Shown one piece after another: positions 56,093-62,509 of a stretch of DNA of 64,000 nucleotides; position 1 is the first letter of the stretch, and each line of letters opens with the position of its first letter. The translations under genes and the position numbers were made by a program. This DNA is from Alphaproteobacteria bacterium. GTDB lineage: Bacteria > Pseudomonadota > Alphaproteobacteria > Kiloniellales > DSM-21159. The notes below the pieces were generated by a model that saw nothing but the letters and a program-made list of their open reading frames with translations, was not told the DNA's origin and did not search any database. Location: NCBI GenBank assembly GCA_030433005.1, contig JAUILQ010000024.1, forward strand, positions 1 through 64,000, given 5' to 3'.

Positions 56093-56282
56093 ATGGCACG
56101 CCGGATCGACGGAGTCTCGCTGGAGACCATGAGCAAGCGCCGGAAGGGGTTTCAACTCGGAGAGCCGCGTCAAGCGCGGTGACCGCGTCGTCCACGGCGA
56201 CAAGGAGCTGATCGAGAAGCTCGGTCGCAACGACCCCTGCCCCTGCGGTTCAGGACGCCGGTTTCAAGGCCTGCTGCTTGAC
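56093..56282 (+). pseudogene. decayed SEC-C motif mini-protein gene
   Basis: An ATG with an excellent site (GGGAGG) opens [20 protein letters not shown], which runs into a stop after 29 codons. The expected continuation [19 protein letters not shown] and the zinc motif [12 protein letters not shown] lie in the next frame, and the closing FKACCL in the third frame. So two small frameshifts (near 56160 and 56262) break what was a small SEC-C zinc-binding protein of about 60-65 residues. The end is approximate. It marks the left edge of the lower-GC insert. Confidence 0.75.
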
Positions 56283-56489
56283 GAGCCGGAGCTTTCATCG
56301 AGCGGAAGTACTATCGGCGGTAGCGAAGGCGGCCGACCTCTCAAGGGAGTTCCGCTCAAGAGAGTTCCGTGCCGAAGGCCAATCCCCAACCCCTAGTACA
56401 AGGGTGAAGACCCGAACACACCACTCCACCTTGCGCTTCCCGCTACCTTCTCCCACCATCGTAGCAGAAGAGCAAAATGGGGGGCCACC

Positions 56490-59400
56490 ATGGAAGCGGA
56501 GACAACAGCCGAAGCCGGAACCCGCAAAATCAAGGTTCACTGGCAGATCGCTGCGAAACTCAACTTCGCTTGCCATCAGAGCGCCTTTCCAGTCCTACGC
56601 GACCTCAGGATCGAGAACCTCGATCCTGACGAACGTCTCGAAGGTCTGCTGGTCACGATCAGTGCCGACCCAACCTTCCTGAAGGCGCGAAGCTGGCGCT
56701 TCGACAGGATTGCGCCTGGGGGCATCGTGCCCGCCAAACAGAGGGACCTGGAGGTGGAAGGCGGCTTCCTCCTCGGCCTCGACGAAGCGATGCGCGGCAC
56801 GGTTACGCTTCGGGTGGAGCGAGACGGCGAGGTGCTCACAGAGGAGAGCCGCACAGTCGAGCTGCTGGCGCGCAACGAGTGGGGCGGCGCTGGCTACATG
56901 CCCGAATTGCTGGCGGCTTTCTCGATGCCGAACGACCGAGCGGTCGACCGGGTGCTGCACGATGCCTCGATGGCGCTAAGGAAGGCCGGCAAGCCGGACG
57001 GCCTCGACGGCTACAAGTCAGGGAGCCGCCAGCGCGTCTGGGAGGTCGTCTCGGCGGTCTACTCGGCGGTCGCCAATCTCGGCATCACCTACGCAGTGCC
57101 GCCGGCAAGTTTCGAGCGCGACGGCCAGAAGATTCGCCTGCCGAGTCAGATCCTGGAGAACCGCGTTGCGACATGCCTCGATACCACGATGCTATTCGCA
57201 TCGGCGCTGGAACGGGCCGGACTGAACCCCATCGTGGCACTGCCGCACGGGCACGCCGTCGTTGGCGCTTGGCTCCAGCCCGAGGAACTGACGTCGATCG
57301 TCATCGACGAGGCGGAGACCCTGCGCAAGCGGTACCAACTGAGAGAGTTGGTCCTGTTTGAGACGACTTGTGTCACCTCGCATCCCGCGCCGCCTTTCTC
57401 CAAGGCCGTAGCAGCCGCGATGGAGACGCTGGTCCCCGAAAAGGACGATACCTTCGGGGCCGCCGTCGACATCCGGCGTGCGAGGTCGCACAGGATTTTG
57501 CCGCTTGGGCTGAAAGACAGTGCCGCGGGTCTCCCTGATGGCGAACCCGAGTCTGTTGCCGCCGAGGTAACGCTGGAGCAAGCGCCTCCGCTTCCCGACT
57601 TCGACCAAGAGGTCGAAGAGGAGACTCCGGATACTCCGGCAGGTCGGCTGGAGCGGTGGCAGCGCAAGCTCCTCGATCTCTCGGCGCGCAACCCTCTCCT
57701 GGCCCATCGCGCGACCAAGGCTTGTCTACGGATCATCTGCCCGGATCCTGGACTGCTCGAAGACAAGCTCGCGGACGGCGCGCGGATCTCTATCGAGCCT
57801 GTGCCCCAGCCCTCCGCTGAAGCTCAGGACAGTGAGATTCATCGCCAACGCACTGGCGAGGTAATCACGGAAGAGTATGCCCGCGACGCGCTCCATAGAG
57901 GCCAGGTTCTGGTGGACCTGCCGAAGGATGAGCTCGGCAAGCGTGCAGTCGAGATCTACCGGAAGGCCGAGACGGCGCTCCAGGAAGGCGGCTCGAACAC
58001 GCTTTACCTCGCGCTCGGCTTCCTGCTCTGGAAGCGCGACGAGAAGGACGATCGGCGCTTTCGGGCGCCGCTGATCCTGCTTCCGGTGACCCTGCAGCGC
58101 CAGTCGGTGCGCAGCGGCGTCAAGATGCTCGCGCACGACGACGAGCCGCGCTTCAACACGACGCTGCTCGAAATGCTGCGCCGGGACTTCAAAGTCGATA
58201 TCAAGGGCCTCGACCAGGACCTGCCGAAGGACCAGAGCGGCATCGACGTCCAGGGTATTTGGAACACGGTGCGCCGCGCCGTAAAGGATGCGCCCGGCTT
58301 CGAGGTCGTCGAAGAGGTAGCCCTCGGCCACTTCTCGTTTGCGAAGTACCTCATGTGGAAGGACTTGGTGGACCGCACGGACGCGCTCCGCCGAAACCGG
58401 GTCGTCCGCCACCTGATCGATGCGCCCCGCGATCCATTCCCAACGGAGATCGGTTTCGTCGAGGCCGAGCGGCTCGATCGGGACTACAAGCCGTCAGATC
58501 TTCTGACGCCGTTGCCAGCCGACTCCTCACAGATGGCGGCGATCGCCACCGCCGACCGGGGCAAGGACTTCATCGTCATTGGGCCCCCAGGTACCGGCAA
58601 GAGCCAAACGATCAGCAACCTGATCGCGCACCTGCTGGGAACCGGCAAGACAGTTCTTTTCGTCTCGGAGAAGACTGCGGCGCTCAATGTCGTCCACCGA
58701 CGCCTCGAGCAGGAAGGCCTCGGCCAGTTCTGCCTCGAGCTCCATTCCAACAAGGCGCGCAAGGCAGACGTACTCAGCCAGCTAGAGAGGGCCTGGGCCG
58801 CTGGCCAACGCTTGACGACAGAGGAATGGCAGCGTGAAGCCGATCGCCTCATGGAGCTGCGCGACCGTCTCAACCGCGTCGTTGAGCATCTGCATCGCCG
58901 GTATCCCAATGGCCTGACCTCGCACTACGCCATCGGCGTGAAGGTGCGTGACGAGGAGCTGGCCGGGCGCGTCTCAGTCTCCTGGCCTCGCTCAGATCAG
59001 CATTCAGAGCAGGACCTCGCTCGTCTGCGCGAGACGGCCGAAAACCTACGTATCCAGGCAAGCGCTATCGGGATGACCGCGGAGACCCCCTTCAGGCTCA
59101 TCGCGACCGGGGACTGGAGCCCGCAGTGGGAGAACGAGCTCGTCGAGAGGGCGGTCGCCCTCTCCTCTGCTGCGGGAGCCGCGGACCGGGCCTGCTCCAA
59201 TCTTTGCGAAACGATCGGTGTCCAGCTGCCGGATCGGACAATGGAGCGCCTTGAGGCGTTCGGCCGCCTTGCCGAAGTTATCGCCGACTCCTACCGCAAG
59301 CAGACTTCCTACGCACTGGAACAGGACGGCCCGGACGTCATCGAGGCGCTGGAAGAGGCGGTGGGGCACTTGAAGGCCTACGCAGAAGCGCACGCACAGC

Positions 59401-62400
59401 TCAGCTGCCGGTACGAACCCATGGCTTGGCGCAAGCTCGATGGGAAGGAAATCGGCCGGAGGTGGCAGGAAGCATGCGCGGCCTGGTGGCCGAAGAGCGT
59501 CTTCGCGCGCCGTACCGTGATGAAGGAGCTGGGCCTGGGTGGTGCACTCGGGAAGCCTGATCCGCGAAGCGACGCTCCAGTGCTGACGAGGTTACGCGCG
59601 GAAGGTGAGGCGATCGACCAGGTCGATCGCCGGCTATCCGCCCTCAAGGCATGGTCGGGCCACGAGACCGATCCGAAGACGGCCGAAGCGTTGCGGGAAC
59701 TCGGCGAGCGGGCGCGCGCGGCCGTAGGCCACTTGGCCGACGACGCGCACGGTCTTGCCGAGTCGCGCGGCAAGGTGCGCGCACTGCTTCAGGACGGCAA
59801 CGACCTGCTTGCCCCGGAGGCGATCGTCGGCCGCGCTGTGCGCGGCTACCTCGAGGCCTACGAGGCTCTGAAGTTGGCCTGCGAGGCATTCGAGCAACGG
59901 GCCGGCCAGGGCATACGCGACTTCTTCGTGACGGAGCGGCATGCGCTCGAGGCGCTGCGGGAGTCCGCCGAAACGATCGTCGCGCGGCGCGCCGAGTTAA
60001 ACGCTTGGTGCGCTTGGCGGAAGGTGCGGAACGAAGCGATCGACCTCGGTCTCAAGGCGCTGGTCGATCGAATCGAGGAAGGCCGCGTTCCGGTCGAGGA
60101 GATTCCGGAGACGCTGGAGGCCGCATACTGCGCCTGGTGGTCCGGGATGATTATCGGCGAGGACGAGGTGCTGCGCACCTTCTCGACGCCGGCTCACGAA
60201 GATGCCATCAGCAAGTTCAGGCGGCTCGACGAAGCGTTTCGAAAGCTCACGGCGGCCTACGTTGCCGCCAAGCTGAGCGGTGCATTGCCGACCCAGGATG
60301 ATGTCCAGCGCAGCTCTCAATGGGGCGTGCTCAAGCACGAGATCCAGAAGAGGAGGCGCCACAAGCCCGTGAGGCAGCTGATGCAGGAAGCGCCGGAGGT
60401 CGTCACGACTTTGGCGCCCTGTCTGATGATGTCGCCCCTATCGGTTGCCAGTATCTGTCTGCCGAGCAGGCACTCTTCGACGTGGTCATCTTCGATGAAG
60501 CCTCGCAGATCACCGTTTGGGATGCGGTAGGCGCCATCGCGCGCGGCAAGCAGGTGATCGTCGCTGGCGATCCGAAGCAGATGCCGCCGACGAACTTCTT
60601 CAATCGTGCCGAGGACGATCAAGACGGTGACGTCGACGAAGGCGACCTGGAGAGCATCCTCGACGAACTCCGCAGCGCCAGTGTCCCGGAATGCACGCTC
60701 AACCTGCATTACCGCTCGCGCCGTGAGAGCCTCATAGCTTTCTCGAACAGCCGCTACTACGAGGATCGTCTCGTCACCTTTCCGGCACCGGTCCATCCCG
60801 ACAGGGGCGTGCGGCTCGTCCGGCCGCATGGGTTTTACGCACGGGGAGCGGCGCGGACAAACGAAGGAGAGGCGCAGGCCATCGTGGGGGAAGTGGTGCG
60901 CCGCCTGACGTCCGATGATGCGAACGAGCGAGAGCCCTCGATCGGCGTCGTCACCTTCAACTCGGAGCAGCAGTCCCTCATCCTGGATCTGCTCGACAAG
61001 GCGCGAAACGCCAATCCCGGAATTGAGTGGGCCTTCGCCGAGGACGCGCAGGAGGCGGTCTTCGTCAAGAACCTGGAAACCGTGCAGGGTGATGAGCGCG
61101 ATGTCATCCTATTCAGCGTTACCTACGGTCCCGACCGATCCGGACACGTGACGATGAACTTCGGCCCGCTGAATCGCGACGGCGGTGAGCGCCGCCTGAA
61201 CGTCGCTATGACTCGTGCACGTTCGGAGATGATCGTCTTCTCGACGCTCCGGCCGGACCAGATCGATCTTTCGCGGACCAGCTTCCGGGCGGTCACGGAT
61301 CTGAAGCACTTCCTGGAGTACGCAGAGCGAGGTCCCGCCGCCTTAGGTGCCGCCGTCAAAGGCTCGCTCGGCGACTTCGAATCACCTTTCGAGACGGCAG
61401 TGGCCAGGGCGCTTCAAGACCGCGGCTGGGCTCTCCACCCCCAGGTGGGAGTTTCATCCTACCGAGTAGACATCGGCATCGTTCACCCGGATGCGCCGGG
61501 CGCCTACCTCGCCGGGGTCGAGTGCGACGGCGCCACCTATCACAGCGCTGCCTACGCTAGGGAGCGAGACAAGATCCGGCAGCAGGTCCTGGACGCGCTT
61601 GGCTGGACGCTATTCCGCGTCTGGTCGACCGATTGGTGGATCAATAAGGCTCACGCCCTCGAGAAACTCGACAGGCAGTTGCGCGAGCATCTGGAAGCCG
61701 ACCAAGCGCGCCGAGCAGCCGAGTCGGAGGCGGGTCAAAGCGAAGAGCCGATGGCCGACCATCCAGACCTGTCCGATGTAGCGGTCGGGAATGGCTCGGT
61801 CGAATCGTCGGTCGAAATCGACGAGCAGCAGGAGCCGGCCGGTCACGAATCAGTGGCGCGCCTGCGCACCTCTTCCCGAGCGGCGAGTGACCCGGAATGG
61901 TCGCCGCCAAGCGAGGGAAATGCGGTCGACGAAGGGCAGGACGAGTTCCAGCTCGGCATCGAAGCCGACGGAGCCCCCGAGCATCTCTACAGGAAGGCTC
62001 CCTTCAACGAAGACGGTCTCGCGGCCGAGCCGGAGCAATTCTACGACGAGGGCTACAATCCGCGTCTTATCGCCATGATCGATCACGTCATCGACGTCGA
62101 GGGCCCCATCCACGAGGACATCCTGGTACGTCGTATCGCTCGCCACCACGGTTTTCAGCGGTCGGGGCGCCAGATCCGCGAGCGGGTACTCGACTTGGCG
62201 AAGACCCGAGGTGGCTGCACGCGGGAGAAGGTGGGAAGGTTCTTCTGGCGAAAGGGAACAGAGGAGAACCGCGTCTCTCCGGCTCGGTATCACGGCCGCG
62301 ACGAGGAGATGCGGAAGGTCGAGCACATCTGCGCCGAAGAGCTTCAGGCTGTTGATCGCAATCTCCAGCTTGGTGGGAATGCAATCGAACTTGCCCGTGC

Positions 62401-62509
62401 CCTCGGCATTGCGCGCCTCAGTCAGCCGGGACGCGATCGGCTCGAGACGGCAGTTGCGACTGGCGACGAAAACTCGGCCGCATCGCTCGCCGATGAAGGC
62501 GGCGCTTAA
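56490..62509 (+). pseudogene. giant DUF4011-helicase-nuclease gene (Hhe-like defence), frameshifted
   Basis: Two overlapping open frames (56490-60530 and 60320-62509) form one gene of about 2006 codons. Order: a transglutaminase-like N-terminal region (about 150-330); DUF4011 (RLERWQRKLLDLSARNPLL near 385); SF1 helicase with Walker A GPPGTGKSQT (698-707), Walker B FDEASQ (about 1333), GDPKQMPPT, HYRSRRESLIAFSN, QGDERDVI and VAMTRARSEM; a PD-(D/E)xK domain of the Vsr/DUF559-like MTES_1575 type (SPFETAVARAL, VECDGATYH near 1630-1680); DUF3320 (near 1856). This layout is that of Hhe anti-phage proteins. One base is missing near 60447-60449, so full product needs repair or a base-call fix. Confidence 0.85.
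60444..60452 (+). other. frameshift site in the Hhe-like gene
   Basis: The first frame reads SPLSVASICLPS and then leaves homology; the second frame resumes exactly with QYLSAEQALFDVVIFDEAS. GTT-GC-CAG shows one base lost between the valine and glutamine codons. There is no homopolymer and no X-XXY-YYZ slippery heptamer here, so neither simple slippage nor classic programmed frameshifting explains it. Confidence 0.8.

Follow-up and report, generated by a model that had tools for sequence, protein, structure and literature searches.

Locus and base composition

The window considered here, i.e., the whole stretch of 64,000 nucleotides that was analysed, carries a very long proA-like coding region that is flanked by sarcosine-oxidase genes and is read on the + strand in two overlapping frames. 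ORF A (56490..60530, 1346 aa) covers the 5′ two thirds of the proA-like gene and is native up to about residue 1320, followed by ~26 out-of-frame residues, while ORF B (60320..62509, 729 aa) covers the 3′ third, with homology starting at about residue 43-44, that is from ~60449. Both ORFs overlap by 211 bp, with frames offset by -1. Note that they were searched separately throughout and that the frameshift was left unmended in every computation.

The GC content (1-kb profile) falls to 63-67% between 56 and 63 kb, compared to 71.8-78.8% over the 7 kb left of the proA-like stretch and 72.1% just to its right, the lowest value elsewhere in the 64-kb window being 66.5%. In addition, the GC content at third codon positions (GC3) reaches 75-79% in the gene vs 98% next door. 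Since GC and GC3 both lie below those of the neighbouring DNA, the gene is foreign to its host and horizontally acquired. A first-pass annotation, based on the letters of the sequence, had delimited a low-GC insert at 56093-62509; the drop in GC is present, but the left end at 56093 falls outside the gene, which starts at 56490. A short, separate relic of a SEC-C motif (56093-56319), with an apparently broken reading frame, lies upstream of the proA-like gene. Copies of this relic were also seen elsewhere in Tistlia consotensis, a sister species in the same genus (C53, 93% identical and with the same layout), and in another genome (G012, 82%), at ~17 kb from proA.

Domain organization of the encoded protein

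The predicted protein comprises, in this order, a beta-sandwich, a transglutaminase-like fold, DUF4011, a superfamily 1 (SF1) helicase with a long helical insert, a Vsr-like nuclease and a DUF3320 winged helix, with Pfam matches to DUF4011, AAA_11, AAA_12, REase_MTES_1575 and DUF3320 distributed across ORF A and ORF B (all features on the + strand). The DUF4011, helicase, nuclease and DUF3320 layout had been recognized in the first-pass annotation, which nevertheless missed the two N-terminal domains. The beta-sandwich (aa 10-126, 56517..56867) is followed by the transglutaminase-like domain (aa ~129-335, 56874..57494), and the AlphaFold model of residues 10-372, which displays this arrangement, has a mean pLDDT of 92.7. 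No sequence relatives of this N-terminal part were found in the PDB. Structural comparison gave Z scores up to 10, which concern the beta-sandwich, as beta-sandwich domains filled the match list. Within the transglutaminase-like domain, Cys229 and His255 are invariant in 51 sequences (columns C220/H246 of A1), and in the model the invariant Cys starts a helix (220-233) while the invariant His lies between two strands (238-243 and 248-252). Pfam transglutaminase matches are weak and occur in 11 of the 51 members; the predicted fold and the expected placement of the conserved Cys and His nevertheless indicate a transglutaminase-like domain.

Downstream, DUF4011 (PF13195, 57666..58178) is matched at 2.3e-49 and is followed by helicase motif I, a Walker A GPPGTGKS (aa 698-705, 58581..58604). 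The helicase core is then interrupted by an all-helical insert (aa 785 to ~1265, 58842..60284); in the predicted model residues 785-1300 are all helix, with a mean pLDDT of 90.8, and the ~480 residues of the insert had no PDB match at E <= 0.001. Helicase motif II, a Walker B DEASQ (60494..60508), appears only when frame B is read; ORF B also holds the second helicase domain with motifs III-VI (AAA_12, 60653..61243), the Vsr-like PD-(D/E)xK nuclease REase_MTES_1575 (PF18741, 61388..61681, 1e-35; conserved D384, E401 and D403 of ORF B) and DUF3320 (PF11784, 62036..62182, 2e-21), which overlaps a winged helix-turn-helix (Anantharaman et al. 2013, PMC3710099).

This organization is close to an architecture known since 2013. 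Indeed, giant proteins of the MTES_1575 type, with HEPN, transglutaminase, SF1 helicase, Vsr-type nuclease and a winged helix-turn-helix overlapping DUF3320, were proposed to recognize invading DNA while lacking DNA modification genes, i.e., a modification-free restriction (Anantharaman et al. 2013, PMC3710099). The transglutaminase-like domain, SF1 helicase, Vsr-type nuclease and DUF3320/winged helix that these giants unite in one polypeptide occur here across ORF A and ORF B. ORF A, ORF B and the helical insert gave no HEPN match with Pfam, which a diverged HEPN could escape.

Family assignment

The NCBIfam model NF058533 ('anti-phage protein ProA', ~1903 positions) matched ORF A over positions 1-1295 and ORF B over positions 1295-1875, a complete and collinear coverage with no profile position lost at the junction, so that both ORFs are the two parts of one protein of ~2,000 residues. 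The scores were 1341 and 834 bits, i.e., a sum of 2175, close to the 2172 and 2161 bits obtained for two intact relatives (the former related at the order level). Owing to the frameshift, neither ORF alone reaches the cut-off of 1500 bits and a single uninterrupted frame is absent. The closest PADLOC model was PDC-S37, a phage defence candidate (3.6e-168 and 1.8e-197 on the two parts), which covers about the same family as ProA but is a candidate model only and lacks the N-terminal ~380 residues (beta-sandwich and transglutaminase-like part). Compared to ProA, the window copy displays a whole-length match, the same domain order and a score equal to that of intact members; it differs by one missing base, and activity is not expected. 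The gene can therefore be regarded, on profile evidence, as a broken rather than a working member of the ProA (PDC-S37) family. Note that we found no paper describing ProA, the anti-phage activity being taken from the family name alone.

The first-pass annotation had proposed a Hhe-like gene. Both families share DUF4011, an SF1 helicase and an MTES_1575-type nuclease region, and the Hhe models do match the two parts (NCBIfam NF042953, 355 and 461 bits; PADLOC PDLC02194, 202 and 346 bits). However, ProA scores far higher on the same parts, and even intact relatives reach only 828-843 bits on the Hhe model, whose curated cut-off is 2000 bits, while they exceed 2160 bits on ProA. Hhe, which comes second best and for which window parts and intact relatives alike fail the cut-off, was thus rejected, and membership in that system is hardly credible. 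The remainder of that description holds: a single very large gene of foreign origin, which combines DUF4011, SF1 helicase, nuclease and DUF3320 and is open save for one base.

Conservation and selection among relatives

A scan of GTDB genomes returned 371 relatives of ORF B; 80 of these were fetched, and other loci were added. In 70 relatives the gene is open over its full length as one frame of ~1,730-2,290 residues, and none of the relatives examined is split at the break point of the window. A short N-terminal product conserved in many strains, which would speak against a single-gene reading, was therefore not what we observed. Copies broken elsewhere by a frameshift or stop (L089, L090, L158, L007 and L035) form a minority. 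Besides, a subgroup in marine gammaproteobacteria (L120, L121, L124 and L126-L130) ends after the nuclease, at ~1,745 aa, without the DUF3320 part.

Conservation in 93% or more of relatives defines a set of 367 positions; the window keeps 365 of them and differs at 2. Compared to T. consotensis, dN/dS was 0.095 up to the insertion point described below and 0.131 between that point and the frameshift; past the frameshift it was 0.046 for the first 420 codons and 0.498 for the final 261 codons, a linker and C-terminal part. Given these values, the gene had been kept under selection as a single unit until recently, and since purifying selection is strong before as well as after the break, the loss is either very recent or a base-call error.

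Nature of the frameshift

The break (60448..60449, + strand) lies just before helicase motif II, between the end of a conserved PLSVA read in frame A and the start of a conserved QYLS read in frame B, at a place that is neither a homopolymer nor a tandem repeat. Over 60150-60750, BLASTN aligned the window with T. consotensis at 91% DNA identity, with 601 bases in the window vs 602; the extra base falls at 60448/60449 in T. consotensis as well as in all four other aligned relatives, which come from other families or orders. One of these four (L037) shows several further gaps in the alignment, yet has the extra base at the same place. None of the other loci fetched contains the break-spanning sequence seen in the window. 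The alignment to relatives thus bears out the earlier observation that a single base is lacking in the helicase core, at a site without repeats.

The overlap of ORF A and ORF B and their -1 offset might also evoke two frames joined by programmed -1 frameshifting, or working as two polypeptides. Both readings are very improbable and were rejected, since no relative splits at the window's break; the 70 relatives have one frame, T. consotensis reads straight through the region, the frame switch coincides with the missing base, and no slippery heptamer was seen by eye at 60430-60450. More weight must be given to the possibility that the organism itself carries an unbroken, functional gene and that the base was lost through an assembly or base-call error, as the draft assembly consists of 116 contigs and no other lesion exists in 6 kb, an absence that fits an error as well as a recent mutation; the same holds for the conserved residues and the purifying selection reported above. 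On the other hand, the site is not a homopolymer, and real breaks of proA are not rare, with a few further copies among the loci examined split by frameshifts, stops or an insertion. Moreover, a coding-phase scan for frame breaks in a 468-kb sample of the same assembly, which detects 25 of 40 deletions planted in native genes, returned five candidates, four of which Pfam explains as normal neighbours (SoxD/SoxA, GntR/MFS and ABC/ABC) or as a two-frame transposase, leaving at most one other unexplained break. The scan did not flag the proA break itself, the codon usage of proA being foreign. With so few unexplained breaks, random indel errors look rare in this assembly, which favours a real mutation. 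We retained both readings of the first-pass annotation, a recently silenced defence gene or a base-call error, and consider the latter somewhat unlikely. The gene is probably a ProA (PDC-S37) single-gene anti-phage system, horizontally acquired and very recently inactivated by the loss of one base, as read in one genome of the species.

Disruption of the gene in Tistlia consotensis

In T. consotensis USBA 355 (G001), whose proA is the nearest relative of the window copy, the gene is itself split over two contigs, one of which is 4,600 bp long, and the contig ends have exactly 8 bp of the gene in common (TGCGAAGT). Beyond these 8 bp, both contigs continue into inverted ends beginning with GTAAGCGCT. 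The 8-bp target TGCGAAGT is uninterrupted in the window (58340..58347, + strand), where it matches the duplication around the inserted element of T. consotensis. One element end occurs 7 times in the T. consotensis genome, in at least four cases at contig ends. Inverted ends, an 8-bp duplication and a multicopy end together indicate that a transposable element has cut proA in this genome (L008 1-92 and L034 10202-10295). It is a putative IS66-type element, to judge from its end sequence and the 8-bp duplication, and fragments of IS66 transposase are present in the T. consotensis genome. Comparing the locus in sister strains, as the first-pass annotation had suggested, thus revealed the same gene disrupted a second time, by an inserted element. 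This newly found disruption is independent of the one-base loss in the window.

Putative function and meaning of the loss

An intact protein would bind incoming DNA through its winged helix and helicase and translocate on ATP, after which the nuclease would cut the DNA, while for the transglutaminase-like domain either action on a protein or a regulatory role within the enzyme may be envisaged. In the window copy, translation would leave the frame just before helicase motif II, and ORF A would yield a protein cut short ahead of motif II, so that the second helicase domain, the nuclease and the winged helix are missing as well. Given this truncation before motif II, the system in the window is expected to be dead.

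The gene is placed in ProA, not Hhe, and the genus would offer a natural pair of broken alleles in a defence family named only recently. Should the loss prove real, the two lesions suggest that such a large helicase-nuclease is costly to keep. A broader hypothesis, which we consider rather doubtful, is that ProA has been switched off repeatedly and independently in this genus soon after strong selection, that active ProA carries a high cost (e.g., through self-targeting) and that the gene is alternately captured and lost. The kind of system is already known, and the locus would be an ordinary example of a defence gene that was switched off not long ago. The conserved N-terminal beta-sandwich and transglutaminase-like part, in which the Cys and His are kept, offers a testable ProA feature.

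Genomic surroundings

An all-against-all comparison of 472 flanking ORFs, aimed at a conserved partner gene, found no family in more than 6 of the 70 loci, and this lack of a recurrent flanking family fits a stand-alone gene. The flanking ORFs that do recur resemble, from a reading of their sequences, an SbcD-type exonuclease and subunits of type I restriction systems. In T. consotensis, proA sits elsewhere in the genome, not beside the sarcosine-oxidase genes; the site upstream of these genes, which proA occupies in the window, holds there a 591-aa ORF with no Pfam match (L064 8951-10726), and may be an insertion hotspot. A second multicopy sequence starts 25 bp after the proA stop in T. consotensis, and the window's genome carries a copy of it ~110 bp from an IS66 transposase match. 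This second repeat, common to contig ends in T. consotensis, contains a small ORF of 92-94 aa with no Pfam match (L008 4273-4600, L064 10685-10990 and G000:C45:70244-70571).
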